Assembly: GCF_042242105.1 (NCBI RefSeq)
Contig: NC_092034.1
Coordinates: forward strand, 3,123,644-3,187,643
Length of the DNA: 64,000 bases
Reading direction: 5' to 3'
Source of the DNA: Pempheris klunzingeri
Lineage: Eukaryota > Chordata > Actinopteri > Acropomatiformes > Pempheridae
Shown: positions 8,466 to 64,000 of the stretch, piece after piece
Layout of the letters: every line of letters begins with the position of its first letter
Numbering within the stretch: position 1 is the first letter of the stretch
Program-made: the position numbers and the translations under genes
Notes under the pieces: model-generated
Database searches by the model: none
The model's input: the letters and a program-made list of their open reading frames with translations, nothing else
Told to the model about the DNA's origin: nothing

Positions 8466-11400
8466 ATGTCCTTACATGGTAGTTTTCTATCGGACAAGCA
8501 GTTCCAGTGCTCGATCTGCCTCGATGTGTTCAATAACCCTTCGTCCACACCGTGCGGCCACAGCTTCTGCATGGCCTGCATCAGCAGATACTGGGACGGA
8601 TCTAAGGTTTGGGAGGTTCCTGTCTTCTTGGTGTGCTTCCCTCTTTCTTTCTTTCTTTCTTTTACAGTTAGTACAGTTGACTTTCCACCCTTCCCCTCTC
8701 AGGTGTGCCAGTGTCCCCTGTGCAAGAAGACCTTCCAGAAACGACCGGACCTCCAGATCAACAGGACGCTGCGAGAGATCACCGAGCAGTTCCGATCCAT
8801 GACAGGCGCAGGAGGAGTGGGGAGGGAGAAGAGAGTCGGAAGAGGAGGAGGAGACGGAGGAATACAGGACGACTTATTTGATGAACTGAAGAAGAAGCTG
8901 CCTCGACCTCTGCCCAAACCACCAGTGACGCTGACCTGTGAGGCTCAAGGTAGGACAAGCAACTGCGTGTCATCACTGCCTTTTCCTGCCTCTCTCTATC
9001 TAACAGTTTCTCTCAATAGAACAGAAATGCCAAAACAAATGGGGGAGGGAACATGAAACAGAAAAAAACAAAAGCATTTTTACTGTCCCACTGAACTCTG
9101 TGTGCACTTCCAGCGTGTGGCTTCTGACAAAGGTGTCTGCTAAATGAATGTACGCAGTGTCATAAAACTTACACAGAAGTAATAATGACAGCCAAGTGCT
9201 GGTGTTTTTATCGTATTTCAAAAATCTATGCACAGCAGCAGAGCCAGTCTACTCAGTTTAGCTGCCCATTCTGCAGATGATACACGACTGTCCTGTCAGA
9301 GCTATGTGGCACAGCAGCAATCTTTAACGAGACAAGCTCCCAAGACTCTGTGAGGCTGTAAATACTGATGTCAGCGTGTTAACATGTTCATAATAACAAT
9401 GTTAACATGCTGACGTTTAGCAGGTATGTTGGCAATGTTCACCATCTTAGTTTAGTATGTTAAAGCTCCAGAAAGCAGCTTCATCATACTAAATTATTTC
9501 ATCCAATTGTTGGTTGAAATCACTTATTTTGACTGTTGTATGTCACCTACAATATTTAATTGAAGGGTTCCTTTAAAGAAATGTGAGTGTGAGTGTTCAA
9601 CATTATAAGAAATTGGACCCGGTCTGAATCAAACAACCAATCAGGGTTAGCCTGCACCTAACTAGCCAATCACAGCGACTCTGTACCAATATGGGCTTCT
9701 GTGGTTTGCCTGTTGTTGTCTGCTAATTACATGCTAGCTAGTTTTTTTAAAGGAACTCTTAAATTCAATTCAGTGGATCACTACTCGATTATTAAAGTCA
9801 GTCAGATACATTATTCTGGGACTATGAATGTCTGCGAATTTTCATGCAATAGCTGCTGAGATATTTCATCCTGATTAACGTGGCGGACCAACTGACCAAC
9901 TGATCGACCGACTGACCGACGGTGCAAACTCTTGAGCCCCACAGCTTGCTAGAAATAAATGTTATTACAGTATTAAAGAAGTTCTGTAAAATGTCGCACA
10001 CACTTCAGCTTGATTCTTCCCTCTTCTACCTTGGAAGGTGAGTCCATCCCGGTGCCATGTTCACCAGTCACCATCTCTCTGGCTTCGTCGATACCAAACC
10101 ACAGTCCGATCGCCGCAATGAACAACAACCCCGGACAACCACCGTCACCGTTCTCTTACTCCCGCCCCAGCGGCCGGAGACGGTTCACCGTGAGTGGGGC
10201 CGCTAGCAGCCACAACCTCCCTCTGTGTGACACCCACCACAGAGGAATAATGGTACTTTCACCTACACGACAAACTGATATCTGTGATTGATTTCCTTTG
10301 TGGTTTTGATTGAGATGCCTATTATCATTAAGATAAAGGTTTTACACTTCAACACTTTCTCTCACTGCTTCCAGATTTACTGTAGGACTGACCGAGTATG
10401 TATCTGTCCTGAATGTGCGGCTGAGGACCACCAGGATCACGACACCATGACCGTCGAAGACAAATGGATGGAAACCAAGGTAGGAAAACAGGTTGGAGAA
10501 ACACAACACTTGAAGTAAACCATTCAGACTTTGGAGAATTCCCTCCTTGAGTGTCGTAACCACAGAGGACAATGGCTGTAAGAGGAAGAACAACAACAAA
10601 GCACCAGCTGAGCAGGTAATGGCTGAAATGTGATGGCAAGAAGTTCCTCATGTTTGGAAATCTGAGCCAAACAAAGTATATTTTAGAAAGACATAATACA
10701 GTTTGGTCTCTGGTATGTAAGGGATAGCACTGACTGTGCCGTCACCTGTTCTTGGCCTCAATCATGAAACATCCAATAATTTATTGTCTGTTTTTTTTTG
10801 GTTTAACTGCCATTAAATGTAGTTCCTGAGAAATCAGAACATGTGCTGTTTTTGTTTAGGCGACATCCAGCGAAACAGAGGTCCCTAAGGCTGAACTTGA
10901 GGCTTTAAAATCCTGACAAATTTCAAAATATGACACTCAAATCGTGACCATACTGGACCTATAAGAAAAGAGAGTAGTTCTGCATTTGTGCATGTTGTTG
11001 GTGGTGGTTATAGAAATAATCCTGGGTGAGTATTGATGAGAAATATGATTTAAGCAAGCACATGTATGGACCTATCTTTTGTTTTTATCACACAAACAAT
11101 CGTTTATTCAAGCAAACAAAACTCTATTCTGTGCTTGATACATTTATTGGCTTTTCTGGGGGGGTTAAGTGCTCAATAAATAAGCTCCCTCTCAGTTTTA
11201 CTTATGTTTCCTAAATCAGGGAATATCTGGCTGTTTTGCCTCCAATCTGATTGATACTAGGATTATTGGATTAAAAGAAAGTAGGCAAGCAGTGGGAGAA
11301 TTAGGCAGTAGGCACATCACAGCCACATGTTGCTCTTTGCTCAAAATGTCCCTTTGCATGCTCTGGAGCGAGGAACAAATATAAATCCATTGAGAACCAT

Positions 11401-42700: not shown

Positions 42701-45700
42701 GGACCTATGACATTTTACTCTGTGTTGACTTTATTGAAACAACTGGGTAAGAGAGCTGTCTGGATATCTGTGTCAACCAAAGAACTACTTTGCAATTATA
42801 GTTTCTGAATCTGCGTTGAATTTATGCAGAATTTAGTCCGTTTATAAATCCATCTCCTCATTCTGACGGTCTATGTGTATGTTTCACAACGTGCTGACTT
42901 GTTTGCGCAGCGGCAGCCACCACCGTAAGCAGGAGCTGGTCAAAGAGCTTCAGAGGAACGGAGTGAACTTTGACGTCAGGAAGCTAAACGTTGGAGACTT
43001 CCTGTGGGTTGCTCGAGAAAAGGTTGCACCTGTTCCAGGTAATACACTCGTAAAGACAACACATTTTTGACCGTGCGTTCAGCTCTCAGAGGGGCGGCAT
43101 CACTGGAAACCTTGTGGAGGAACCGCTGAAGAGTGTGACACATCCTGAGGTCATGAGGGGCCACAGCTTAATATAGAAGTTCCTGTCAAGGATTGTGTCA
43201 TCGAGCGTGTTTGTACAGTTTGTCGAGCCTTTTCAACTCATGTTTTCTAGTCCACTTCTTTTTTTTTTTTTTTCCTCCAGTGTGAAGGTTTTTCTTGAGC
43301 ATGTCATGTTTTACAGTTTATTTTAGAATAGATGCACATGAATTATGATACACTTAAATCAGTGACTGTTCAAACAGAATAACTTAGAACTATACGTAAA
43401 ACTATGGAGTTGTAATAAGCACTAAAAAAGAGAAGTAAATATACAGCCGGATCTTTAAACTGTTTTAACCTTGTTCTGATACTAAAGGGGTGTTTGCCAC
43501 ACATTTGCTTGTTTGAACTTTTAATGCTTTTAACATTTTCTTGTCAGAAATTAGAGGTAAAGTTAAGGAAGATCAGAAACCTATGACCGTTTCAGGCTTT
43601 TGAAGTAATCAACTAAATTCCAAAACAAAGAGGAAGCCAATGCAGCTCGTTGCTCAGGTTATATACTTCACCACTTGGAGTATAAATTGCCCACCAGCTC
43701 TCTAAAATGAGAAGGCATTATAATCTCATTCTGTCTGTTCTTCCTCTCTCTCCAGGTCAGTTGCGAGCCCCTGCAGGCAGGGAGCTCGTACTTGATTACG
43801 TCATTGAGAGGAAGAGGATGGACGACCTGTGTGGCAGCATCATCGATGGACGCTTCAGGGAACAGAAGGTTGTTATGTGGTGCATATTCTTCCTTTTTAC
43901 AAGTCAGTTCATCTGTAAAATGTGAAGAATGGTGACAAATCCCACAATTATCAGTTTAACTTCCCCTCTTCCTTTCTGTCCTGCATCAGTTTCGACTGAA
44001 GAGGTGTGGTCTTCGAAGGCCCATCTATCTGGTGGAGGAGTGCGGGTCGGCTGCCTCCCACCTGAGTTTACCTGAAACTACACTACAGCAGGCCATCGTC
44101 AACACGCAGGTGCGAGCTCGTACACTTACACGTTATTGAACATTACTGACTGAACGCAGGTCCTGTATGATGGAATTAACATACATGTTTGTAAATAAGC
44201 AAAATATAGCAGATATTTGCTGGACGTAAATGTGTTATTGACTGTATGTATTTCACCCTAATTTTGAATCCTTATAATGTAATTTATATTGTTCAAAATT
44301 ATCTGTAGGAAAACTTTTAGATCGTCAACTTGTTTGCGTGTTTATGTGAAAGCCCTGTGCACTGTGTGTCAGGTGGTAGATGGCTTCTTTGTGAAGAGAG
44401 TGCAGGATGTGAGGGAGTCGGCGGCCTACCTCACCGTCATGACGAGATACCTGACCAAACTGTACCAGGTGAAACGCTCATTTTCTCATCCCACTGTAGG
44501 GGATACCTACAGGGGCAAACAGTGCTTTTCTTTGGGACTATTTTCAGCAGCGGATTAATACACATTTGGTGTTCTAGTGAGAATCTGGGGCAGCAGAACT
44601 ACAGTGTGTGTGTTAATGGTCATTACAAAACAATATTTGTTTGTAAAATCATCACCAATATTAAGTTTAATGATCTCTTTCATTGTTACAACGCTCCTTA
44701 ACTGCTACGTGTGCTCCACTTTGTTTCATCCTTTTTAATCTTAGAACTGTACGCTGCTCTGTCGCTCCAGAGAGCTGGAGGGTGATGGAGGGAGTGATGA
44801 TGATGAGGAGGAGAGAGGGAGCCCTTACCGCTCTCTCATTTCCTTTGCCGAGTTCAACCACGGTGCAATCAAAAACAAGGTGTGTGTTTGTACAGTCCCA
44901 CCAAATGCATGTCCTGTCACCTGTTTCTAACCAGCAAAAACAAAATGTTTCACTTCTCAAATGCAGCGTCACAGCTCTGAATATATGAATCTCTGCTTGC
45001 CTCTTTTCTCTCCCAGTGTCAGACAGTGAAAGAAGTGTTTGCCAGACAGTTGATGCAGATTAGCGGCTTGTCTGGAGACAAAGCAGCTGCCATACTGGAG
45101 CACTACAGCACCCTGCACAGGTAACTCACAGCTCAGTATATGTACAGACGGTCATTCACAGAGTATTCTTACCCATCATCTCATCAGGAAAAGTAAAAAA
45201 AAAAACAAATAACGATACAATAACAAACAAATAATATTTGTTAACTGACCTGTGCAATAAATGTCATTTCTGTACGATTCCAATAATTTGAATAATTTTT
45301 TTTTTAGCTAAATTTGAACATTACCTGTGAGATTACAGGGAAAGTGAGGCCAGATTGTGCAATCCCTCCCAAACTGGGATAAACACATGCATTTTGCTTT
45401 CTCACTGTTTGTCACCAATGCAATGTTTGTAGACACTTTACACACACATAGATAAGGGACTTATTTGGCCAAGCGTTAAATTTATAGAGGCTCAGAAAAA
45501 GAGCACATTTGCTCTGCACCCTCTGTGTGTTCTGAGTTTGCCATCACATTTCCACAATTTATACTCATTCAATACAAATAAAAGTACATACTGCAGTGTG
45601 TGCATGGTCTTACCTTTACTTGTAAATGAAGTCTGTTCACCTGGACAAAAGTCTTTGTTGTAAACTAGGCAGGGTCAAGTGTGAAGTTTTATATTGCATA

Positions 45701-48745: not shown

Positions 48746-50959
48746 CAGATTCTGACCTGGACCCTTCTTGCTCTGAGTCAACAGCACTTCCCACAGTAAA
48801 ATCAGGTGGTACATAGTGTTCACCAAATGTGACTGCTGCTGTTAAGTCTTGAGCCAGCTGATGTTGGGCCTCACCACATGGTGAAAACTACATGTTTCTT
48901 TGTCTGTGGAACAAAGGACTCCTTCACTGAACTCTTTTCCGACGCCTCTCCTGAAGAGGAGAGATCCTCTTTCCCACCTCTCTCCTGAAGAGGAGAGACG
49001 CTCTCTGTCTGACCTCTCTGCCTCAGTGTGGCCTGTACCAGAGCAGACCACCTTCTTCATGGCAGCGACACGAAGTCCAAAGGAGCGACCAGATTCCTCC
49101 AGCCTGCAGCCACACGGCAAGGACAAAGAACCACACCTTTCCTCCAGCCTGGTTCAGCAACAGGCTGAGAAAGCAGCACACTTCTCCCCTTTTAAGGACT
49201 GGTAACAAACTCTAACTGGGCATAATTAGCATAGCATTACTATTGCATTTAAATTGGGCACACTTGCGTTACACCCTGGCTGTGTGCTCCTGTGGGGCAC
49301 CTCTGTGCTACAACAAGCCTGCGTTTTTGGGCAGGTCCTCAATGCACTGAGAGAACTGAAAGATTCAGCAAATCCAAATTTAACCGCTGCTTACAAGAAA
49401 GTATGCAGTACTGTTGCCAGGCAGCAAACACTACACATATTATACTCTCCTACTTGGACCCACACAAAAACGTCAGAAAGAGGGATGTGTTTTGAGTAGA
49501 AAAGTAGTTTTTGCACAAAACTTGTTTAGTTGGAAAAATGTCCTGAATAAACATTAGTCTGTAAGGATCCAGCCGACTATCTGCAGCACCAAATGATCCT
49601 CTTTTTCTTATTCTATCCTCTAACAGTTTTTTTTAAAATCAATTTGATATATGTAGATGGTAGATAAGTAGATAGACTTGAGTTGAAGACTGGATAAACT
49701 GATTTGACATGGTAGCTCATGGCACAAGCCTAATAATCTTCAGTTGTTGCCATAAAACTCAACGTTCTGTCCGACAATTTTGTATCAGTCATTAAGACGG
49801 TAACTATCAGAGCACACATTCAACTCTCTGTAGAAGAAGAATGATCAACATAACTTTTCTACATCCGTATCAACCTTTTTTCTCCTGATCATAAAGGCTT
49901 CTCCAGCGCCAGGCAAGAGTAGTTTCACTTCTAAGAAATCTTCTGTCCTGAATCCTGTAAATGAGCAAAGATCTGGGGGCGTTTCTCTCTCAGACTCTCA
50001 GCAACAACATATTCTGTGTGAAAGTGCAGCAGTGCTTCAGAGGAGCAGACACGTTTCCATTGTAAGTACACAATGTTAACTTTGTTAAATAATTTTAAAT
50101 GATTTCTACGAGTCCATCTTTTGCTTTTTAGTTGATTTTTATAAAGCATTTGACTGTAAGGAGACAAGTTTGTGCTGGTATGGGAGTAAAATAAGGCTGC
50201 TTTTTTAGACACAAGTAGTGTTGATCAAGTATTCAATCAGGTTCAGTTTGAAATTGAATATGTGTATATACATATATATATATATAAAGTAGTCTTGTAG
50301 TAGTTGTAGATGTGTTGTTACGAAATACTAACATTGTTTATTATAAAAACTGTCTGATACTGTTAAGATGGGAAATTGAGTTTCAACAAAAAAGAAGAAT
50401 AAGGGAATCTCAAACTTTTATTTTTCTAAAAGTGCACACTTTATCTTAAGATGCACGCTTTTTCTCTCTATTGTGATCTCTATGTTTGAATACAGCTCTT
50501 ACTTCAGGCTACTTGAAGTGTAGAAAAGAGCATTGATTCTTGAGGAAACTTCCTCAAACCTCTGAGCGCTCATGCACTAAACATTGCTACTCACTGACTG
50601 CCCTACCTCTCCAGGGGACACAAGCTACAAAGACAGCAAGATAAGAAATAAAAGCAAGAAGCTTAAGCATAAGTGCTGCCATGTTTTGACACTCACAGTC
50701 TGTATTCCCTGAGTAAACACTAGCAAATGAATCAAAAGATGCCAGGCAAACTCCACTGTCATCATGCACCCAAAACCTGGCTACTTTGCTTTAGTGACCC
50801 TAAAAGTATTGTTAATCATATTGTGGGAGAACTGGGAGGCTTAACTCTCAATAAAAAAACACACACATACACATTGACTGGATAAAGCTTGACAGACATT
50901 TCTTTACCAAGATATTTCCTCATTTCTCCTCTCCTTGCGTCTCTCCATGCAATCCCGCT

Positions 50960-51344: not shown

Positions 51345-51399
51345 TATTTAAAACTCTCTTCTTTTTCCTCTCCTATCCTCTCTCCAGTCCAAAGCTGAA
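51345..51399 (+). promoter_or_regulatory. core promoter or splice-acceptor region of array gene A
   Basis: TATTTAAA at 51345-51352 is followed by a pyrimidine-rich stretch, CCAG at 51385-51388 and the short leader TCCAAAGCTGAA before the ATG. The sequence is virtually identical before genes B (56497-56551) and C (61200-61254). It can be read either as a TATA box with a pyrimidine initiator, or as a polypyrimidine tract with a 3' splice site. Confidence 0.5.
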
Positions 51400-52692
51400 A
51401 TGGCAAATCAAAGGAGACTCTTCACACTGTCACTCACTTGGATCCTATTCTTCTCACCATGGCCCATCTCTGGACAAATGCACTTCAGCCACCTTGGGAC
51501 AAAATGCTCTGGCGACTGTCAGGTTCATGGCACCGAGTACCAGTGCACAGTACTCAAGACAGACGGCAAAGAAGCACTGCAATACTGCTCACCTAAGAAG
51601 GACGTGGACTACCGCGGATATGAGTGCATTGACTGCTGTCAGAAGCATGGCTATGGCTACTACTGGTGTCAAACAGCATCAAACTGGGGATACTGTGGAG
51701 ATGTGGTAGAGGACTCAGTGCATTACGCCTCCGAGTATGATGTGCCGTGTTATGATGGCTGTGACAAGCGAGGTTCTGGGTACAACTGGTGCCACACCAA
51801 CATGGGGTGGGATTACTGCTCAACAAGAAAGAATGTTGCTTCTAAAGGCCAAGTCTGTCACAGTGATTATCCCTGTGACAAAAGTGGACAAAAGTACTTC
51901 TGGTGTTACTTGGAGGGAGGAGGCTGGGACTACTGTGGACGAGTGGAGCCAAAGGCAATGATTCATCAAACTTATGAGCTCAAAGAATGCATTGATGAAT
52001 GTCAGTATGATAAGTCTAAAGAATACTTCTGGTGCCACACTCAAAATGGCTGGGACTACTGCTCACCTCTACCAGACGTCACCTACAAAGGTGAGGACTG
52101 TCGCCCAGATCACAAGTGTGAAACCCATGGCTACAGCTACAACTGGTGCTTCACAAAAGACAGCTATGGTTACTGTGGAGTTATCCTTCCTGGAGAATGC
52201 AGGTATTCTGAGCCACGCCGCAGCAAACGGCAACCCAATAGAAAACCTAACGCAAGACAGGTGATCTGTACTAAGGAGGACAACAACCAGAGAAGAGTGA
52301 CCACTTTCACAGCAGAAGATGCTCAGCAACACATATTAGAACCTAACAATAGGTTACGCAACGAAGCATTAGATTTAATAAACCAGTGGGACAACCAGGG
52401 CTTAGGCAACCAGGGCAGATCCAACTTGATCACATCAGATAACCTTCGCATTGACCTACAGGGATTGATTAACAGGAATAATCAGCAGTATTACAACCTG
52501 CAGATCCAGTGGAACGTGCCACGCCGTAGCGGACAATCCACCACTCTGGCACAGATTATAGTTCCCGTTGACACTTCAGCTGAGTACATGCGTGAGGCCT
52601 TCAGGGAGAGTTTACAGCGCCGGGCCAGGATTGTCTTGGAAGTAACTGAAACTACAATGCCAGGCCGAAATGTTTGTAGGCGACGTAACTGA
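51400..52692 (+). CDS. secreted six-repeat cysteine-rich protein, array copy A
   Basis: I do not recognise this family. The single uninterrupted coding exon gives 430 aa. Residues 1-25 form a signal peptide (hydrophobic LSLTWILFFSPWPISG). Residues 36-267 hold six repeats, each with four cysteines: 36/40/49/63, 76/80/90/99, 117/121/131/140, 153/159/169/179, 197/201/212/221, 234/240/250/259. Repeats 2-6 end in a Y-x-W-C...(W/Y)-x-Y-C signature (for example YFWCHTQNGWDYC). This recalls the second half of fibronectin-II or kringle modules, but the full spacing differs. An extra C79 makes a CIDCC cluster not seen in copy B. The basic linker (about 271-287) includes RSKR, a furin-like site. The rest (about 288-430) is a domain with TTFTAEDAQQHILEP and YMREAFRESLQRRARI. 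No transmembrane segment or GPI signal is visible. A poly(A) signal is at 53019. An extracellular role is inferred from the signal peptide. Confidence 0.88.
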   Translation: MANQRRLFTLSLTWILFFSPWPISGQMHFSHLGTKCSGDCQVHGTEYQCTVLKTDGKEALQYCSPKKDVDYRGYECIDCCQKHGYGYYWCQTASNWGYCGDVVEDSVHYASEYDVPCYDGCDKRGSGYNWCHTNMGWDYCSTRKNVASKGQVCHSDYPCDKSGQKYFWCYLEGGGWDYCGRVEPKAMIHQTYELKECIDECQYDKSKEYFWCHTQNGWDYCSPLPDVTYKGEDCRPDHKCETHGYSYNWCFTKDSYGYCGVILPGECRYSEPRRSKRQPNRKPNARQVICTKEDNNQRRVTTFTAEDAQQHILEPNNRLRNEALDLINQWDNQGLGNQGRSNLITSDNLRIDLQGLINRNNQQYYNLQIQWNVPRRSGQSTTLAQIIVPVDTSAEYMREAFRESLQRRARIVLEVTETTMPGRNVCRRRN

Positions 52693-53018
52693 CATACCTG
52701 TAGCGTGTTGACCTCAAACACGTGGCGCCATAATTAACATGTCATGTGTCAGGTTAATGTTTGAGTGTAAACTGCATTTAATACAACAATAGCTAGTTGG
52801 CCGCTTGTCTGTTATTGACCACATATACACAGCTGTGTTCCCTTTCCTATAGTCTAGGAAGGTTTTTGCAAAATCCTGTTTAAACCAATCAATCAGTTAT
52901 CTGCCATTTTGATTTTATCATTCATGTATTCATTTATGTTTATCCTTAATCATTTATGCATGTTGGGTTTTACATTCATTTATGCAGTTGATAACATACT
53001 TGGTGCATAGAAGTCATC

Positions 53019-53024
53019 AATAAA
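53019..53024 (+). terminator. poly(A) signal of array gene A
   Basis: AATAAA in the context CATCAATAAAGCC, about 330 bp after the stop. The same signal in the same context lies at 58128 (gene B) and 62880 (gene C). Confidence 0.8.
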
Positions 53025-53075
53025 GCCTTGTTAAAGAATCTGTTGTGGTGGTTTGTGTGCATAAAGAAATTGGTG

Positions 53076-54104
53076 ACTGTTCATGAGCTCCTTTAGATTA
53101 AGACTGATTAAAGTTATTGGTAAGTTACACTTTTTCCCTGTAGTAAAAGGGTGCCCCCCCCCCATACAAGGTGCTTAGACTTTATTTCCATGATACATTA
53201 AAGACAGTGATAACATGCTGATTCCAAAATTGCGTGCAACAACTTAATTTTCCTTGCTTCTACAGTGGGACCTCGATCTGTTTCACTTCTCAAATGCAGC
53301 GTCACAGCTCTGAATATATGAATCTCTGCTTGTCTCTTTTCTCTCCCAGTGTCAGACAGTGAAAGAAGTGTTTGCCAGACAGTTGATGCAGATTAGCGGC
53401 TTGTCTGGAGACAAAGCAGCTGCCATACTGGAGCACTACAGCACCCTGCACAGGTAACTCACAGCTCAGTATATGTACAGACGGTCATTCACAGAGTATT
53501 CTTACCCATCATCCAAGGTAAGGCAGAGCCTCACCTGTCATGAGGAAAAGTAAAAAAAAAAAAAACATAATGAACTGGGATAAACACATGCCTTTTGCTT
53601 TCTCACCGTTTGTCACCAATGTAATGTTTGTAGACACTTTACACACAATTTATACTCCCTCAATACAAATAACAGTACAGACTGCAGTGTGTGCATGGTC
53701 TTACCTTTACTTGTAAATGAAGTCTGTTCACCTGGACAAAAATCTTTGTTGTAAACTCAAGTGTGAATTTTTATATTGCATATTTTATCTTTTTTATATG
53801 TACATTAGTGCGTAGAAGAAGAGCGATAGCAGAAACCTGTGTGCTCACACACACCCCTTCAATGAGGCAGAAGTACTGGCTGTTTTACTTTGGTTTTCTG
53901 TCAGATCAACAAGCCTGAATATGTTCTACACATGTGCCAAATACAAATGCTATTCTATGGAAAGTGTCTTTAATGTGTCATGGAAATAACATAGTCTAAT
54001 CACCTTGTATGGGGGGGGGGGGGGGGGGGGGGGGAACTACAGGGAAAAAGTATAACTTACCAATAACTTTAATCAGTCTTAATCTAAAGGGGCTCATGAA
54101 CAGT
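53076..54104. repeat. long inverted repeat flanking the duplicated mus81 exon
   Basis: The left arm 53076-53203 and right arm 53968-54104 are inverted copies. Reading left to right, the left arm holds ACTGTTCATGAGC, TTAGATTAAGACTGATTAAA, TTTTTCCCTGTAG, a C-run, ATACAAGGTG and ACATTAAAG. The right arm holds the complements in reverse order, with the C-run present as 24 consecutive Gs at 54011-54034. About 760 bp separates the arms. Confidence 0.85.
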
Positions 54105-54353
54105 GTCTAAAAGTGTCTACAAACAGTGAGAAAGCAAAAGGCATGTGTTTCTCCCAGTTTGGGAGGGATTGCTCAATCTGGGGAGGCTCAGGTCACAGAA
54201 GTACAAGGCCAGATCAGTGTTAATGTGAATAAAGTGCACACAGTCCTGAGTTGTTTGGGTGGAGACGGTCCGATAAGCAAGGCTCTGTAATGGCTAAAAT
54301 TGGGTTTTGTCCTAAGTGCAGTCAGGGGAGCACGTTTGTGTAATACCCTAAAC
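53280..54353 (+). pseudogene. duplicated mus81 intron and exon 14 fragment
   Basis: From 53280 the sequence matches mus81 from about 44947. Exon 14 (53350-53453) is identical over all 104 bases to 45017-45120, with intact acceptor CTCTCCCAG and donor GTAACT. The surrounding intron is almost identical at first, and later parts correspond to mus81 intron 14 with deletions and inserted sequence. The match ends near the hAT insertion, matching mus81 up to about 46214. Exons 15 and 16 are absent, so no complete second mus81 exists. The piece encodes only part of the C-terminal HhH domain. Confidence 0.93.
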
Positions 54354-54696
54354 CAGGGGTGTCCAAACTCCGGCCTGCGGGCCAACTGCGGCTCATGGTC
54401 CAATTTTCATTTCTACCGAGGGGCAAGAAAGTGGAGGTAAGGCTGTTGATGTGAGCACCGGGGCTCTAGCACAGACTATTTCAAGCTTCCCTCTCTGATG
54501 CTGATGTTGGTGTTGTTGTTGTTCAGTTATCAAGCATTTGATTGATTTTGGCAACTTTAGTCCACTAGAGGTGAGGAGATATACATCACCTCTAGTGGAT
54601 TAAAGTTAGCAGCATAGCTCACTTCTAGTGAGTGGCCCAGCCCTTTGTATGTTTTTCTGTATGTGGCCCTCAGTGAAAGAAGTGTGGACACCCCTG
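54354..54696 (+). mobile_element. short hAT (Charlie-type) element, second copy
   Basis: 343 bp with the same termini as the element at 1120-1809 (CAGGGGTGTCCAAACT at the left, GTGTGGACACCCCTG at the right). It has a near-perfect 8-bp target duplication: CCCTAAAC at 54346-54353 and CTCTAAAC at 54697-54704. Relative to the 690-bp copy, about 380 bp of interior is missing. The paralogous site in mus81 intron 14 (46207-46214, CTCTATAC) is empty. Confidence 0.9.
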
Positions 54697-54704
54697 CTCT
54701 AAAC

Positions 54705-55702
54705 TAAATGTCATCTTAAAGATAAGATACAGCTGGATTTCAGTTGTTAGTTGTACGTGGACACAAAGAAGCGTTTCAGCTCCACCTCTTTGAATAATAA
54801 GGTCAACTGTAATGTAAAGTCTGATGTGTTTTTCCTTCTTGAACACGTTTAAGTTAAGATATATATTAAGTTGTGTTTTGAGGGTATAACGTGCTGTCAG
54901 GTCATTAGCTCTGGACGACTACCAGGAATTATTCATCATAGTTTGATGAACTTGCAAAACAACGTTCTATTTTGATTTAGGTAATTCCTTTTTTTCCCGT
55001 CATCTGTGTCCTTTCAGTTCATCTCATCGGCACTTTTTCCTTCATGTTTCTACAGAAATTATTTCTCAGAAATCATTTTTCATGATGACTTATTATTATG
55101 TTATGTATTAACTTGTTCTAATCACTTCAAACAGAACTAGCACTGTCATTTTCGTTCATTAGGAACCTTTGTGTTACAACAAGCCTGTGTTTTGGGGCAG
55201 GTCCTCAATGCACGATTTCAAAATCAAATTTAACCGCAGTATGCAGTACTGTTGCCAGGCAGCAAACACTACACATATTAAACTCTCCTACATGGACCCA
55301 CAGAAAAACGTCATAAAGAGGGATGTGTTTTGAGCAAAACTTGAGCATTATTTGTTTTGGTTTTTTTAATTTTCATGATGACAGGTGAGGCTCTTCTGTC
55401 CTGCCTCCTGAATGAATAAAGGACACTCAGACACTCAGCAGCAACATATTCTGTGTGAAAGTGCAGCAGTGCTTCAGAGGAGCAGACACATTTCCATTGT
55501 AAGTACACAATGTTAACTTTGCTATATAATTTTAAATGATTTCTACGAGTCCATCTTTTGCTTTTTAGTTGATTTTTATAAAGCATTTGACTGTCAGGAG
55601 ACAAGTTTGTGCTGATATGGGAGTGAAATAAGGCTGCTTTTTTAGACACAAGTAGCGTTGAGCAAGGAAAGGAGGATTCAATCAGGTTCAGTTTGAAGTT
55701 GA

Positions 55703-55761
<59 letters not shown>

Positions 55762-55783
55762 TGTATGTGTGTGTATGTATATG

Positions 55784-55851
<68 letters not shown>

Positions 55852-55882
55852 CAGTATATATATATATATGTGTGTGTATATA

Positions 55883-55934
<52 letters not shown>

Positions 55935-56551
55935 CTTGTCGTATAAAAGTCTCATCGATAAAAGTTAAAGGTGAAATAATTTAAAAAAAAGAAGATTTGA
56001 AGAAGCCACATTTTCGGAAAGAAAAACAGAACCAATGCACCAATGAATAAGTGCAGGTTAAAATGAGGCACTTTTCTGTACAAAACATCTTCATAGGAGG
56101 AGCTGCACAAGTTTTGGAATTCATCTAACAACATCCACGGCCTTAATGATCAGCCTAATGAGTGCTGCCTGAACCCTACAGGACCAAAAACGTATTTGCT
56201 CCAGCTGACAATAAAAGACTCAATAAATAAAAGATAATGCATGTAGAGAACACAAACTATGTGTGAGGAAACAGGGTGTGATCCTTGGCATTCAAGATGG
56301 GTTTGAGCACATGTAGGCGGCAGGCAGACGTGTTGAGACATACAAATCTGATATAACAATGTGAACACCAAACTACACCTGATGAAAGAAAGAATGCACC
56401 AATAAATAAGTGCAGGGTAAAATGAGGCACTTTTCTCTACAAAACATGCAGAAAATCCCAGCGAAGCATGAAACTCACAGACTGAATACGGTGTCTTATT
56501 TAAAACTCTCTTCTTTTTCCTCTCCTATCCTCTCTCCAGTCCAAAGCTGAA
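54705..56551. other. spacer of array unit B
   Basis: Consists of shortened copies of unit A spacer segments (see 54740-55090, 55168-55335, 55430-55700), then a compound GT/AT tract, then an upstream region in which the motif GCACCAATRAATAAGTGCAG plus following AAAATGAGGCACTTTTC occurs twice (about 56035-56080 and 56396-56440). Between the two copies is a segment related to the 3' flank of genes B and C (58342-58425). Confidence 0.65.
55709..55931. repeat. compound GT/AT microsatellite
   Basis: Over 200 bp of alternating purine-pyrimidine sequence: long GT runs interrupted by TATATA blocks. The large cysteine/valine or threonine/histidine-only open frames on both strands are artefacts. At the equivalent place units A and C carry only short AT tracts (50268-50286; 59716-59756). 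Confidence 0.95.
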
Positions 56552-57805
56552 ATGGCAAATCAAAGGAGACTCTTCACACTGTCACTCACTTGGATCCTAT
56601 TCTTCTCACCATGGCCCATCTCTGGACGAATGCACTTCAGCCACCTTGGGACAAAATGCTCTGACGACTGTCAGCTTTATGGCACCGAGTACCAGTGCAC
56701 AGCACTCAAGACAGACGGCACAGTAGCACTGCAATACTGCTCGCCTAAGAAGAACGTGGACTACCACGGATACAAGTGCACTGACTCCTGTCGGAAGCAT
56801 GGCAATGACTACTACTGGTGTCACACAGCGGCAAACTGGGGATACTGTGGAGATGTGGTAGAGAACTCAGTGCATTACTCCTCCAGGTATGATGCGGTGT
56901 GTTATGATGGCTGTGACAAGCGAGGGTATGAGTACAACTGGTGCCACACCAAGAACGGGTGGGATTACTGCTCAACAAGAAAGAATGTTGCTTATAAAGA
57001 CCAAGTCTGTCGCAGTGATCATCCCTGTGGCAAATATGGAAATGATTACTTCTGGTGTGACTTGGAGGGAGGAGGCTGGGACTACTGTGGACGAGTGGAG
57101 CCAAAGGCAATGATTCATCAAACTTATGGGCTCAAAGAATGCATTGATGAATGTCAGTATCATAAGTCTAAAGAATACTTCTGGTGCCACACTCAAAATG
57201 GCTGGGACTACTGCTCACCTCTACCAGACGTCACCTACAGAGGTGAGGACTGTCGCCCAGATCACAAGTGTGAAACCCATGGCTACAGCTACAACTGGTG
57301 CTACACGACAGACAGCGATGACTATGATTACTGTGGAGTTATCCTTCCTGGAGAATGCAGGTATTCTGAGCCACAGAACACAACACAGGTGATCTGTACT
57401 AAGGAGGACAACAACCAGAGAAGAGTGACCACTTTCACAGCAGAAGATGCTCAGAAAACCATATTAGAACCTAACAAAAAGTTACGCAACGAAGCTTTAG
57501 GTTTAATAAACCAGTGGAACGGCCAGGGCTTAGGCAACTTGATCACAACAGGTAACCTTCGCATATACCTACAGAGATTGATTAACAGGAATGATCAGCA
57601 GTATTACAACCTGCAGATCCAGTGCAACATGCCACACTGTAGCAGACAATACAACACTCTGGCACAGATCAATGTTCCTGTTAACACTTCAGCTGAGTAC
57701 ATGCGTGAGGCCTTCAGGGAGAGTTTACAGCGCCGGGCCAGTATTTTCTTGGAAGTAAATGTAACTACAGTGTCAGGCCGAAATGTTTGTAACCCACCTA
57801 ACTGA
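56552..57805 (+). CDS. secreted six-repeat cysteine-rich protein, array copy B
   Basis: 417-aa paralogue of copies A and C, with the same 25-residue signal peptide and six four-cysteine repeats. It is the most divergent of the three. The extra cysteine of A and C in repeat 2 is a serine here (CTDSC). The basic linker is reduced to EPQNTTQ, removing the furin-like site. Five residues are deleted in the C-terminal domain. That domain has gained two cysteines five residues apart (QCNMPHCSRQ, about C358 and C363). Three N-glycosylation sequons, NTTQ, NTSA and NVTT, are absent from A and C. Repeat 5 is nearly unchanged, while repeats 1-4 carry many replacements. The leader and proximal upstream region match those of copy A. 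Function unknown; secretion inferred. Confidence 0.88.
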   Translation: MANQRRLFTLSLTWILFFSPWPISGRMHFSHLGTKCSDDCQLYGTEYQCTALKTDGTVALQYCSPKKNVDYHGYKCTDSCRKHGNDYYWCHTAANWGYCGDVVENSVHYSSRYDAVCYDGCDKRGYEYNWCHTKNGWDYCSTRKNVAYKDQVCRSDHPCGKYGNDYFWCDLEGGGWDYCGRVEPKAMIHQTYGLKECIDECQYHKSKEYFWCHTQNGWDYCSPLPDVTYRGEDCRPDHKCETHGYSYNWCYTTDSDDYDYCGVILPGECRYSEPQNTTQVICTKEDNNQRRVTTFTAEDAQKTILEPNKKLRNEALGLINQWNGQGLGNLITTGNLRIYLQRLINRNDQQYYNLQIQCNMPHCSRQYNTLAQINVPVNTSAEYMREAFRESLQRRASIFLEVNVTTVSGRNVCNPPN

Positions 57806-58910
57806 CATACCTGTAGCGTGTGGACCTCAAACACGTGGCGCCATACCTAACAAACAAGAGGTCATGAGTCAGATTAATGTTTGAGTGTAAACCGCATTTA
57901 ATACAATAGCTAGTTGGCCGCTTGTCTGTTATTGACCACATATACACAGCTGTGTTCCCTTTCCTATAGTCTAGGAAGGTTTTTGCAAAATCCTGTTTAA
58001 ACCAATCAATCAGTTATCTGCCATTTTGATTTTATCACTCATTTATTCATTTATGTTTATCCTTAATCATTTATGCATGTTGGGTTTTACTTTCATTTGA
58101 TAACATACTTGGTGCATAGAAGTCATCAATAAAGCCTTGTTAAAGAATCTGTTGTGGTGGTTTGTGTGCATAAAGAAATTGGTGGTTGGTTCAGCTGATA
58201 CAGTGGTGCAGTGACGCTCGTGTGTCTGAGAGAGAGAAAGAGAGATAAAGGGAAATATGTGAATTGCGACAACACATAACTGAAATGCATTGGGTATCTG
58301 ACTGCATGCAGAGAAGGATGTGACCCTTGGCATTCAAGTTGGGTTTGAGCACATGCAGGCAGCAAGCAGACGTGTTGAGACAGACAAACCTGATAAAGCA
58401 ATGTGAACGCCAAACTACACCTGATGGTCCAACTGAACTGAAGAGAAAAGCATGGTGAGCAGATTAAAGTCATTTTTGAGTAAACACTAAAATAAGGTGG
58501 AGAATTAGCCCGAACTGAAGTTGTGAAATAAGAAATATTAGAAATAGGGTCAGGTATTCGTTCAACTATTTTCAATTGACAAAAAATCCCCCACCCACTA
58601 CAATTACAGAGTGAAACACGTTCTGTTTGATATCAAAGAGATAAACCTCTGTGTGTACATGTGTGCTGTGCTTCTTCTTAGATTTCCAATCACTCCTTGC
58701 CAAACTGTTCAACTATCCTACCCTTCTCACACATCCATCCATTTTCTATATCATATATCCATTTACAATTTATCAGTCAGGGGTCCCATGTCTGGCAGTG
58801 GCCTCCAAATCTCTGACACTTGCTCCTCACACTTACCTGGCAGGAGAGATACCACGATCAAGAAGGTGGTTCACCGAGGGCGAGGCTATGGCAAGGAAAT
58901 GGCAAATTTC
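57806..58910. other. 3' UTR of gene B and start of unit C spacer
   Basis: Includes the poly(A) signal at 58128. From about 58140 onward there is roughly 700 bp almost identical to the sequence after gene C (about 62900-63640), with only a handful of differences. This marks a very recent duplication junction region. Confidence 0.8.
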
Positions 58911-58913
58911 CTG

Positions 58914-58952
58914 GAAATGGCAAATCAAAGGAGACTCTTCACACTGTCACTC
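58914..58952 (+). pseudogene. 39-bp relic of an array gene start, chimeric
   Basis: GAAATGGCAAATCAAAGGAG and the following 19 bases match the first coding bases of genes A-C (ATG at 58917). At 58953 the sequence switches abruptly to the spacer that lies near 49431 in unit A (CACTACACATATT). The join looks like a deletion that removed the rest of a former gene copy. Confidence 0.8.
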
Positions 58953-59706
58953 GCACTACACATATTAAACTCTCCTACTTGGACCCACACAAAAACGTCA
59001 GAAAGAGGGATGTGTTTTGAGCAGAAAAGTGGTTTTTACACAAAACTTGTTTAGTTGGAAAAATGTCCTGAATAAACATTAGTCTGTAAGGATCCAGCCG
59101 ACTATCTGCAGCACCAAATGATCCTCTTCCGCCACTCCCTCAGCGTCTGCTTTGGGCTCCCACAGGACGCCCGCTGCTCTGGATAATCTACAGGAAATGT
59201 GAGATGCTTTAATTGAAACTACTTTTCACCAGAGAAATATTTCTTTTTTCTTATTCTATCCTCTAACATTTATTTTTTTCAATCAATTTGATATAGATGG
59301 AAGATAAGTAGATAGCAGTGACGTGTGGTGAGGTTGTTATTGTTTTTCTTTTTTACTTTTCATGATGACAGGTGAGGCTCTTCTGTCCTGCCTCCTGAAT
59401 GAATAAACAAACAAAGATCTGCGGGCGTTTCTCTCTCAGACTCTCAGCAACAACATATTCTGTGTGAAAGTGCAGCAGTGCTTCAGAGGAGCAGACACGT
59501 TTCCATTGTAAGTACACAATGTTAACTTTGTTAAATAATTTGAAATGATTTATACGAGTCCATCTTTTGCTTTTTAGTTGATTTTTATAAAGCATTTGAC
59601 TGTAAGGAGACAAGTTTGTGCTGGTATAGGAGTGAAATAAGGCTGCTTTTTTAGACACAAGTAGCGTTGATCAAGTATTCAATGAGGTTCAGTTTGAAGT
59701 TGAATA

Positions 59707-59744
<38 letters not shown>

Positions 59745-61254
59745 CGTATATATATAAGTAGTCTTGTAGTAGTTGTAGATGTGTTGTTACGAAATACTAA
59801 CATTGTTTATTATAAAAACTGTCCGATACTGTTAAGATGGGAAATTGAGTTTCAACAAAAAAGAAGAATAAGGGAATCTCAAACTTTTATTTTTCTAAAA
59901 GTGCACACTTTATCTTAAGATGCACGCTTTTTCTCTCTATTGTGATCTCTATGTTTGAATACAGCTCTTACTTCAGGCTACTTGAAGTGTAGAAAAGAGC
60001 ATTGATTCTTGAGGAAACGTCCTCAAACCTCTGAGCGCTCATGCACTAAACATTGCTACTCACTGACTGCCCTACCTCTCCAGGGGACACAAGCTACACA
60101 GACAGCAAGATAAGAAATAAAAGCAAGAAGCTTAAGCATAAATGCTGCCATGTTTTGACACTCACAGTCTGTATTCCCTGAGATATTTGCCAAAGCAAAG
60201 GTTCCTATACACAGTAGGTTCAAATAAGGACGTGAAAATAACATGCATATGTGACAGGAGCTGGTGTTTTTGTCCTCAAGCAGGGCAAAGTTATCTTTCA
60301 TGCATTTCATTACATATTATTAAAGTGCGGATTGTAAAGCTTTAAAATCATGTGTCATACACTGAAAACAGTTCAAGACGATATGCTTTTTTGAATGATG
60401 GCACCACTAAAATCAAGGAGCACAATAAAATCCACTCTCACAGGCAGTTAATGGGCTGCAACAACAGCTGGTTAACTCCATCCCCAACTACTCCCTCACT
60501 TCACTACTTATTATTATCTGTGATTGGGGAGGTTACCCACACAAACTTACAGGACTGACATGTTTAAACCGTGGCTGAAACAAAACTAAGTAAACACTAG
60601 CAAATGAATCAAAAGATGCCAGGCAAACTCCACTGTCATCATGCACCCAAAACCTGGCTACCTTGCTTTAGTGACCCTAAAAGTAATGTTAATCATATTG
60701 TGGGAGAACTGGGAGGCTTAACTCTCAATAAAAAAACACACACATACACATTGACTGGATAAAGCTTGACAGACATTTCTTTACCAAAATATTTCCTAAT
60801 TTCCCCTCCAGCAGCATGCTCGATGTTTGGTGAGAGTTGTAGACTCATTTTTTTGGTTATGGTCAGGAAAAGTCAGAGCTCTTGAAAAAAAAACTTCTTG
60901 CTTGACCGATGCTGCTCATTTCTCCGTCATGCTTTACACCTCAATATCTCTGGCTTTCATCCTGTTTGTGAGGGTTCACCACTATCACCACTATCATCTT
61001 ACAAACACTGAGCTGCCTCTTCAACACATTAACTTCTGTTAAAGGTGAAATAATTGAAAAGAAAATAGTGATTTGAAGAAGACCCAATTTCATAAAGAAA
61101 AAACAACAGAAAGAAAAAATGCACCAATAAATAAGTGCAGGTTAAAATGAGGCACTTTTCCCAGTGAAGCATGAAACTCACAGACTGAATACGGTGTCTT
61201 ATTTAAAACTCTTTTCTTTTTCCTCTCCTATCCTCTCTCCAGTCCAAAGCTGAA
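58953..61254. other. spacer of array unit C
   Basis: Mostly collinear with unit A: 58953-59110 with 49434-49600, 59415-60180 with 49965-50710, 60588-60810 with 50712-50930, and 60910-61254 with 51057-51399. It differs by about 400 bp of unique insertion (60181-60587), an AT tract at 59716-59756 and loss of the 50960-50992 segment. Confidence 0.75.
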
Positions 61255-62544
61255 ATGGCAAATCAAAGGAGACTCTTCACACTGTCACTCACTTGGATCC
61301 TATTCTTCTCACCATGGCCCATCTCTGGACAAATGCACTTCAGCCACCTTGGGACAAAATGCTCTGACGACTGTCAGGTTCATGGCACCAAGTACCAGTG
61401 CACAGCACTCAAGACAGACGGCAAAGAAGCACTGCAATACTGCTCACCTAAGAAGAACATGGACTACCGCGGATATGAGTGCATTGACTGCTGTCAGAAG
61501 AATGGCTATGGCTACTACTGGTGTCAAACAGCGGCAAACTGGGGATACTGTGGAGATGTGGTAGAGGACTCAGTGCATTACTCCTCCGAGTATGATGTGC
61601 CGTGTTATGATGGCTGTGAAAAGCGAGGTTATGAGTACAACTGGTGCCACACCAACATGGGGTGGGATTACTGCTCAACAAGAAAGAATGTTGCTTCTAA
61701 AGGCCAAGTCTGTCGCAGTGATTATCCCTGTGACAAACGTGGAAAAAAATACTTCTGGTGTTACTTGGAGGGAGGAGGTTGGGACTACTGTGGACGAGTG
61801 GAGCCAAAGGCAATGATTCATCAAACTTACAAGCTCAAAGAATGCATTGATGAATGTCAGTATGATAAGTCTGAAGAATACTTCTGGTGCCACACTCAAA
61901 ATGGCTGGGACTACTGCTCACCTCTACCAGACGTCACCTACAAAGGTGAGGACTGTCGCCCAGATCACAAGTGTGAAACCCATGGCTACAGCTACAACTG
62001 GTGCTACACCACAGACAGCGATGACTATGATTACTGTGGAGTTATCCTTCCTGGAGAATGCAGGTATTCTGAGCCACGCCGCAGCAAACTGCAACCTAAA
62101 AAAAAAACAAACACAAGACAGGTGATCTGTACTAGGGAGGACAACAACCAGAGAAGAGTGACCACTTTCACAGCAGAAGATGCTCAGCAACACATATTAG
62201 AACCTACCAAAAAGTTACGCAACGAAGCATTAGATTTAATAAACCAGTGGGACAACCAGGGCTTAGGCATCCAGGCCAGATCCAACTTGATCACGTCAGA
62301 TAACCTTCGCATTGACCTACAGGGATTGATTAACAGGAATAATCAGCAGTATTACAACCTGCAAATCCAGAGGAATGTGCCACGCAGTAACAGACAACCC
62401 ACCACTCTGGCACAGATTATAGTTCCTCTTGACACTTCACCTGAGTACATGCGTGAGGCCTTCAGGGAGAGTTTACAGCGCCAGGCCAGGATTTTCTTGG
62501 AAGTATCTGTAACTACAATGCCAGGCCGAAATGTTTGTAGGTGA
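61255..62544 (+). CDS. secreted six-repeat cysteine-rich protein, array copy C
   Basis: 429-aa paralogue, closest to copy A. It has the same signal peptide, six repeats including the CIDCC cluster, and the C-terminal domain with YMREAFRESLQRQARI. Repeat 6 has the longer loop TTDSDDYDYC shared with copy B rather than the shorter TKDSYGYC of A, which suggests gene conversion or loss in A. The linker reads RRSKLQPKKKTN, so it stays basic but lacks the RSKR furin-like site. A C-to-T change turns the fourth-last codon of copy A (CGA) into TGA, so the protein ends at ...NVCR. A poly(A) signal is at 62880. Function unknown; secretion inferred from the signal peptide. Confidence 0.88.
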   Translation: MANQRRLFTLSLTWILFFSPWPISGQMHFSHLGTKCSDDCQVHGTKYQCTALKTDGKEALQYCSPKKNMDYRGYECIDCCQKNGYGYYWCQTAANWGYCGDVVEDSVHYSSEYDVPCYDGCEKRGYEYNWCHTNMGWDYCSTRKNVASKGQVCRSDYPCDKRGKKYFWCYLEGGGWDYCGRVEPKAMIHQTYKLKECIDECQYDKSEEYFWCHTQNGWDYCSPLPDVTYKGEDCRPDHKCETHGYSYNWCYTTDSDDYDYCGVILPGECRYSEPRRSKLQPKKKTNTRQVICTREDNNQRRVTTFTAEDAQQHILEPTKKLRNEALDLINQWDNQGLGIQARSNLITSDNLRIDLQGLINRNNQQYYNLQIQRNVPRSNRQPTTLAQIIVPLDTSPEYMREAFRESLQRQARIFLEVSVTTMPGRNVCR

Positions 62545-64000
62545 CGTAACTGACATACCTGTAGCGTGTTGACCTCAAACACGTGGCGCCATAATTAACA
62601 TGCCATGAGTCAGATTAATGTTTGAGTGTAAACTGCATTTAATACAACAATAGCTAGTTGGCCGCTTGTCTGTTATTGACCACATATACACAGCTGTGTT
62701 CCCTTTCCTATAGTCTAGGAAGGTTTTTGCAAAATCCTGTTTGAACCAATCAATCAGTTATCTGCCATTTTGATTTTATCATTCATGTATTCATTTATGT
62801 TTATCCTTAATCATTTATGCATGTTGGGTTTTACTTTCATTTATGCAGTTGATAACATACTTGGTGCATAGAAGTCATCAATAAAGCCTTGTCAAAGAAT
62901 CTGTTGTGGTGGTTTGTGTGCATAAAGAAATTGGTGACTGGTTGGTTCAGCTGATACAGTGGTGCAGTGACGCTCGTGTGTCTGAGAGAGAGAAAGAGAG
63001 ATAAAGGGAAATATGTGAATTGCGACAACACATAACTGAAATGCATTGGGTATCTGACTGCATGCAGAGAAGGATGTGACCCTTGGCATTCAAGTTGGGT
63101 TTGAGCACATGCAGGCAGCAAGCAGACGTGTTGAGACAGACAAACCTGATAAAGCAATGTGAACGCCAAACTACACCTGATGGTCCAACTGAACTGAAGA
63201 GAAAAGCATGGTGAGCAGATTAAAGTCATTTTTGAGTAAACACTAAAATAAGGTGGAGAATTAGCCCGAACTGAAGTTGTGAAATAAGAAATATTAGAAA
63301 TAGGGTCAGGTATTCGTTCAACTATTTTCAATTGACAAAAAATCCCCCACCCACTACAATTACAGAGTGAAACACGTTCTGTTTGATATCAAAGAGATAA
63401 ACCTCTGTGTGTACATGTGTGCTGTGCTTCTTCTTAGATTTCCAATCACTCCTTGCCAAACTGTTCAACTATCCTACCCTTCTCACACATCCATCCATTT
63501 TCTATATCATATATCCATTTGCAATTTATCAGTCAGGGGTCCCATGTCTGGCAGTGGCCTCCAAATCTCTGACACTTGCTCCTCACACTTACCTGGCAGG
63601 AGAGATACCATGATCAAGAAGGTGGTTCACCGAGGACGAGGCTCGGCCATTGCACCCTTGTTGTGCAAATGATTTGTACTTAGTGATCCTAGACGTATTG
63701 TTAATCACATTGTGGGAGAACTGGGAGGCTTCCCTCTCAGTAAAAACACACACATTCACATTGACTGGATAAAGCTTGACAGACATTTCTTTACCAAAAT
63801 ATTTCCTAATTTCTTCTCTCCTCGCATGATTTTCTTCTCCATGCATGTCTCCATGCAATCCCGCTGACAGGTACTAAGATGCCAGGAAAAGACGCAGGTG
63901 AGGCAAACTTGTATGCGATTAAGAGACTTGGGGTGCACCCAGAGTGAGGTTATCAGCTTGTGAGGTTATCAGCACTGCTGATTGTTGTCCAGCAGCATGC
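62545..64000. other. 3' UTR of gene C and 5' flank of a probable fourth unit
   Basis: 62900-63640 repeats the 3' flank of gene B. From about 63680 the sequence follows the upstream region of gene A (50790-51060): TTGTTAATCACATTGTGGGA, CATTGACTGGATAAAGCTTG, then the possible 5' exon CTGACAGGTACTAAGATG at about 63867. The window ends before any coding sequence. A fourth gene copy just beyond the edge is likely. Confidence 0.7.

Follow-up and report, generated by a model that had tools for sequence, protein, structure and literature searches.

A tandem gene array adjoining mus81 in Pempheris klunzingeri and the replacement excess of one of its copies

The window analysed here, a stretch of 64,000 nucleotides from the fish Pempheris klunzingeri (assembly GCF_042242105.1, contig NC_092034.1, positions 3,123,644 to 3,187,643), contains three copies of a gene, named A, B and C, whose coding sequences had been described as diverging mainly by amino acid replacements inside nearly identical flanks. 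The question raised by this locus is whether selection has favoured protein change in these copies, and in which of them, or whether the replacements have another origin, such as exchange with a diverged copy, biased conversion or a simple loss of constraint.

The array and its predicted product

The whole genome (646 Mb, 439 contigs) was searched with DNA and protein queries, and seven gene copies were found: A, B and C in the window, and D, E, F and G. Copies A to F form an array of about 30 kb that adjoins mus81 and ends some 30 kb from where A starts. Copy G belongs to the same contig, at a distance of 13.4 Mb. At E ≤ 1 the search listed no copy beyond these seven except for one weak match on contig C15 (E 0.13), which was taken as a chance match and not as an eighth copy. 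The upstream neighbour was recognised as mus81 through the MUS81 chains in the PDB, the best match (E 6e-21) being 2ziu, which we take to be the zebrafish MUS81 structure.

All features described below are on the forward strand and are given in window positions. Copy A (51400..52692) is an intact ORF in a single coding exon that encodes 430 amino acids. Copy B (56552..57805) is also an intact ORF, of 417 amino acids, with the same architecture as A, and it is the copy that carries the replacement excess. Copy C (61255..62544) had been compared with A over the first four to five repeats only; it is a complete ORF of 429 amino acids. It stops three codons earlier than A, with a TGA where A has CGA, and its coding sequence is identical to that of D, which lies outside the window; hence, there are six distinct sequences among the seven copies.

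All seven copies keep an open reading frame, and each carries a GTAAGT donor, a CAG acceptor directly ahead of the ATG and an AATAAA. The donor, kept in the six array copies and in G, stands behind a putative 5' UTR exon. In A this exon would occupy 49991..50061, with an approximate start, and it is followed by the donor at 50062; exon 2 begins with 51388..51399, after an acceptor CAG that ends at 51387. The predicted first exons of B and C are located at 55426..55498 and 59427..59507, again with approximate starts, and their second exons start at 56540 and 61243, after a CAG acceptor as in A. The AATAAA is found at 53019..53024 in A, at 58128 in B and at 62880 in C. The gene unit would consist of two exons, the first untranslated and the second carrying all of the coding sequence.

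The array also contains an orphan copy of a mus81 exon, present only once, between A and B (53351..53456). Its 106 bp are identical to positions 45018-45123, slightly more than the 104 bp of full identity first claimed. The 3' flank of B (58183..58887) is identical to that of C (62939-63643) at 702 of 705 positions, and over the 1,075 aligned sites of the two 3' flanks only 13 differ, in agreement with the few differences noted at first sight. A stranded fragment of a CDS start (58914..58952) lies upstream of the first exon of C.

The predicted product comprises a putative signal peptide, recognised by eye, six repeats, a linker that is basic and variable, and a C-terminal part some 140 residues long. 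Each repeat has about 40 residues, four cysteines and a W-C/W-x-Y-C motif. The linker of A, E and F contains RSKR, absent from B, C and G, which fits the furin consensus; in B the basic linker is lost. There are three N-X-S/T sequons in B and one in E, and none in A, C, F or G. The repeats share the motif G..Y.WC.T..W.YC with fibronectin type II (FN2) and kringle modules, but they have about 40 residues and their own cysteine spacing. In Pfam, none of the matches of A, B and C passed the threshold, and the FN2 model did not match any of the three at E up to 10; likewise, sequence searches of the PDB gave no match below E 0.2. A repeat-profile search of the PDB placed a plasminogen chain and the seminal plasma protein PDC-109 as its top two matches at E about 0.3 (PDC-109 being second, 0.32), presumably kringle and FN2 modules, respectively; these matches offer a possible FN2/kringle lead and not membership. 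The AlphaFold models were poor, with a mean pLDDT of 42 for the full protein and 58 for the C-terminal part. Homology of this part to Pur-alpha was considered and not accepted (Foldseek E 0.006 or worse, query TM about 0.3).

The ORFs of the array genes are under real constraint, since about 13 stops would be expected under neutrality and only one is observed, three codons from the end, and since the codons of the Cys/Trp framework rarely vary. The residue varies in only 3 of 38 such codons, with silent-only variation in 4 more, compared with 131 of 369 other codons whose residue varies. The framework of cysteines and tryptophans is therefore kept, as had been stated.

The replacement excess of copy B

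A and B were compared over 415 shared codons by the NG86 method, with a Fisher test and a codon bootstrap. Replacements affect 74 codons and silent changes alone affect 9, close to the roughly 69 and 9 of the initial annotation, and in terms of differences there are 84 replacement and 10 silent ones. Formal site counting gives a dN of 0.092 and a dS of 0.037, so that the ratio stays above 1 at 2.49 (Fisher p 0.0042; bootstrap 1.4-5.4). The repeats 1-4 (164 codons) hold 35 of the replacements and the C-terminal part 30, and repeats 5 and 6 have 3 each (83 codons together; p 0.006), a distribution that agrees with the concentration previously described in repeats 1-4 and the C-terminal domain and with a nearly unchanged repeat 5. 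Charge-changing replacements account for 41 of the 74, vs 39% expected (p 0.003). For A and C, the earlier count of 16 replacement and 4 silent changes over repeats 1-5 was exact; over the whole gene, the figures are 41:10 codons, with a dN/dS of 1.06. The B-C comparison gives 66:12, with a ratio of 1.77 (p 0.067).

The DNA surrounding A and B is nearly identical only next to the coding sequence, where divergence is 2.2% before it (134 bp) and 2.7% after it (372 bp), vs 7.5% in the CDS itself. Further out, the description no longer holds: exon 1 and the intron start differ at 16/298 sites (5.4%) and the segment further upstream at 15/238 (6.3%), with large indels besides. Around the mus81 exon copy the divergence is 0.4%, with 234 of 235 bp identical including its edges. 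When the alignable non-coding DNA is pooled, the A-B divergence is about 86/1,841 (about 4.7%), a hand sum over BLAST pieces in which some 52 bp of A enter twice, vs 84/968 at replacement sites (p 4e-5). The A-B dN (9.2%) is about twice the alignable non-coding divergence, and dS agrees with that of the surroundings.

The multi-copy tests were carried out on the six distinct sequences (C being equal to D), which form 15 pairs. The NG86 ratios of the array pairs that include B are 3.47 with F, 2.49 with A, 1.77 with C and 1.58 with E, and the remaining 11 of the 15 pairs lie between 0.50 and 1.18, including B-G at 0.94. The B-F value (p 0.0004) survives the correction for 15 pairs. The excess that had been described between the gene copies is thus present for B against A, F, C and E and absent from the other pairs; it belongs to B relative to the array and is not family-wide. 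Seen from G, B is not unusual, because their ratio is 0.94.

Segregating sites were also counted once each, so that neither common ancestry nor conversion inflates the counts. Within the array, the sites private to B are 50:4 (omega 4.05), with p 0.0014 at kappa 2.3 and 0.012 at kappa 1, the maximum-likelihood estimate of kappa being 2.3-2.4. B was chosen post hoc from among five array copies, and a fivefold correction brings these values to about 0.007 and about 0.06, respectively. When G is included in the comparison as well, the sites private to B are 32:4 (p 0.05 at kappa 2.3, 0.16 at kappa 1). G, the most diverged copy found, has an ordinary ratio, with 47:18 private sites (omega 0.88, p 0.67), and the comparison restricted to A, C, E and F gives 74:24 (omega 1.05, p 0.91). 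For the whole array the count is 129:29 (omega 1.53; p 0.044 at kappa 2.3, 0.38 at kappa 1), an excess that, when split, is not significant in either the repeats (p 0.19) or the C-terminal part (p 0.13).

Three-sequence branch models were run on ten triplets. In those combining B and G with A, F, C or E, the array omega was 3.1, 4.7, 2.1 and 2.0, respectively (p 0.0003, 1e-5, 0.010 and 0.008), and no array excess was detected in the triplets of G with A-C, A-E, A-F or C-E (p 0.19-0.87). The triplets A,C,B and A,C,E gave omega values of 1.2 for A and 1.1 for C, not different from 1, and of 3.1 for B; the branch test with A, B and C as its three sequences singles out B (p 0.002 for a departure from 1), with p 0.32 for A and 0.48 for C. 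The overall M0 omega on the six copies is 1.20, not different from 1 (p 0.25).

Part of these figures could be explained by a constraint relaxed after duplication, with the copies drifting at omega near 1 while the cysteine framework is held and A-B being simply the extreme of 15 pairs. The 11 ordinary pairs, the omega of 1.05 among A, C, E and F, the M0 value and a corrected p of only about 0.06 for the B-private sites at kappa 1 agree with such a scenario, which we consider possible but doubtful: at kappa 2.3 the B-private excess survives the five-copy correction, B-F survives the 15-pair correction, dN is above the non-coding divergence and the frames are open in all seven copies. Positive selection on B relative to the other array copies is supported by the pairwise counts, the three-sequence branch models and the once-counted sites, none of which depends on a single tree. 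The replacement excess separates B from the other array copies, with an omega of about 2.5 to 4, and this is a signal of moderate strength; it follows, at the same moderate strength, that protein change was favoured by selection in B, either alone or together with the ancestor shared by the remaining copies.

Exchange between copies and its effect on site models

Exchange between the copies has been recent and repeated. The recombination tests proposed initially gave a double answer: 49% of the pairs of informative sites (65 sites) conflict with a single tree, and PHI detected no spatial clustering of recombination among the copies (p 0.4 to 0.8). The C and D units show 2 differences in 4,719 bp, five bases apart in the 3' flank, and at both of them D has the state of B and C has that of A. 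Copy F has an A-like CDS and a different 5' flank (24/141). Similarity between copies is higher in the UTRs, the intron ends and the codons of the signal peptide than elsewhere in the gene, and the first 25 codons are invariant across A, B, C, E and F.

B groups with G in the CDS tree (99% support), through 16 replacement and 0 silent sites; by its flanks and dS it belongs with the array and is as distant from G as the other copies are. Two explanations offer themselves: selection changed the ancestor from which A, C, E and F descend, or two old protein types persist with their silent sites homogenised. In the latter case, selection on replacement sites would maintain the two old types (B/G and A/C/E/F) as distinct proteins, with conversion in short tracts evening out the silent and flanking sites of the array, and the protein would represent an undescribed fish recognition family with six FN2-like half-repeats and an unrecognised C-terminal domain. 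Taken as a whole, this proposal seems to us rather unlikely.

The extensive reticulation, together with the 16 replacement states that B and G share against the other array copies and their strongly supported union, would also be compatible with a conversion of B by a diverged, unsampled donor copy that brought in many replacements at once. Silent changes should then have come along, yet the counts are 16:0 for the sites shared with G and 32:4 for B alone, and B is no closer to G in dS or flanks. Moreover, the changes are unclustered according to PHI, the genome search at E ≤ 1 offers no further copy apart from the weak C15 match, and a replacement excess would have to be assumed for the donor as well. 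We regard such a donor as very improbable.

GC-biased gene conversion can raise apparent omega, and exchange among these copies is frequent, which would favour this process, or a mutational bias, as a source of the replacements. The B-specific changes, however, comprise 12 AT-to-GC, 15 GC-to-AT and 9 other changes, and the neutral replacement fraction stays within 0.72-0.78 when CpG sites are weighted by 5 or 10. GC-biased conversion was rejected for want of an AT-to-GC surplus (12 vs 15), and we find it hardly credible that either bias lies behind the replacements.

The site models for the six copies were run on one unrooted tree. The M1a/M2a comparison yields a 2dlnL of 39 (38.8; p 3e-9), with 45% of the codons at omega 3, and M7/M8 and M8a/M8 are also nominally decisive. 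The M1a/M2a p-value is 8e-6 without B, 2e-8 without G and 0.64 on A, C, E and F alone. Two nulls without positive selection were simulated. In the first one, with five segments that have a tree of their own each, the segments and topologies being set by hand, none of 80 runs reached the observed 2dlnL, and the largest value was 9.1. In the second one, a conversion null in which a fresh coalescent tree was drawn per codon or per ten codons (60 runs each), a 2dlnL of at least 38.8 was reached in 6 of 120 runs (1/60 and 5/60, respectively), and 106 of 120 exceeded 5.99, the nominal 5% threshold. This null roughly matches the data in variable codons (158 and 155 vs 163) and is somewhat harsher in incompatibility (0.59 and 0.58 vs 0.49). 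Since it reaches the observed statistic without any positive selection, the site-model p-values are inflated, and the value calibrated in this way is about 0.05. The site-model check that had been suggested thus gives a nominally overwhelming result that the conversion null nevertheless matches in some runs. The case illustrates how a marginal signal can be inflated to p about 1e-9 by standard site tests when paralogues convert one another.

Probable selection on copy B and comparable arrays

The reading that we prefer, with a probability of roughly 0.6, is that of a tandem array homogenised by exchange in which B has been under real but modest positive selection, perhaps together with the ancestor of the other copies. 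The initial annotation had proposed diversifying selection or conversion from a diverged donor. The first holds for B against the array and not for the family as a whole, as the omega of 1.05 among A, C, E and F indicates; as for the second, exchange is clearly at work, but a diverged donor alone leaves the replacement excess unexplained. B differs from its neighbours mostly by replacements, as do genes engaged in biological arms races, and the other copies show no clear excess.

In the selection reading, unequal exchange and short conversions would spread and homogenise the units, evening out silent and flanking sites, while selection would keep the protein types apart. The product may be a secreted, disulfide-bonded binding protein whose Cys/Trp framework is kept and whose other residues vary, possibly serving in a contest, of host defence or of reproduction, where having a second copy that differs is an advantage. 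The sequence data favour neither of these two settings over the other.

The closest published pattern appears to be that of the SSSGP-1 salivary cluster of the Hessian fly. This cluster has seven genes, two of them with identical proteins; the signal peptide, UTRs and intron are conserved, and divergence falls on the mature coding part, where dN/dS exceeds 1 (PMC2955719). Transcripts were shown, all 16 pairs of Table 2 are above 1 and concerted homogenisation was proposed (PMC2955719). The fish genes resemble this cluster in having intact tandem copies (six in about 30 kb and one remote), C and D with identical CDS, and a signal peptide and near-CDS flanks more alike than the mature coding sequence. 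They differ from it in that the fly genes encode small salivary proteins of an insect, and in that only the pairs with B are clearly above 1 here (1.58-3.47).

Another compact array is that of the small serum proteins of the habu snake, with five genes within 30.5 kb, in which, according to PMC6609765, one subgroup evolves in an accelerated manner and the other alternately in an accelerated and a neutral manner. The snake proteins are named differently and their genes have further introns; the likeness, which is one of description, lies in a compact cluster that combines accelerated and neutral evolution. Arrays of this kind are therefore already known. The protein family itself was recognised in no paper of the literature searched, and five short peptides taken from its sequence were all absent there. 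If the preferred reading is true, it adds a vertebrate family, unrecognised in the libraries searched, to the secreted arrays whose coding DNA outruns its non-coding surroundings. The orphan mus81 exon copy between A and B provides, in addition, a marker of the history of the array.

The C and D units

The unit that holds C, a tandem copy of the gene for a putatively secreted cysteine-rich protein (58932-63650), is identical at 4,717 of 4,719 bp to the unit of D, a further copy beyond the window (L009), and the two form a tandem duplicate with a spacing of 5,519 bp. At the only two differences, located at 62782 and 62787, D carries the state of copy B and C that of copy A. This duplicate represents either a very recent duplication or an assembly duplicate that was not collapsed.

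The orphan mus81 exon and stranded coding fragments

The segment 53279-53513, comprising the orphan mus81 exon and its edges, matches its source in the neighbouring mus81 gene at 234 of 235 positions, whereas a duplicated segment upstream shows 6.3% divergence between A and B. Either the near-identical segment is a tract of local conversion, or it has changed unusually slowly.

Short pieces from the beginning of the CDS occur upstream of exon 1 in copy C (58914-58952) and in F, another copy of the array (L010, near C23:3199275), as well as on the far side of the distant copy G (L011). Two of them retain the splice acceptor region, and these fragments are apparently remnants of deleted copies.

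Linker, repeat and other ORF

The linkers of A (residues 274-277), E and F contain RSKR, a furin-like site; those of B, C and G lack it.

An interspersed repeat (54354-54711) has matches on many contigs of the same genome and a second match in the window at 1543-1815. Its ends, GGGGTGTCCAAAC and GTGTGGACACCCC, resemble hAT-type inverted repeats. Between 42 kb and the end of the array, the + strand contains a single instance of the repeat's terminal motif, located between A and B.

By eye, the ORF at 8466-9056 (+ strand) starts with a RING-finger-like sequence and is perhaps a TRIM-type gene.
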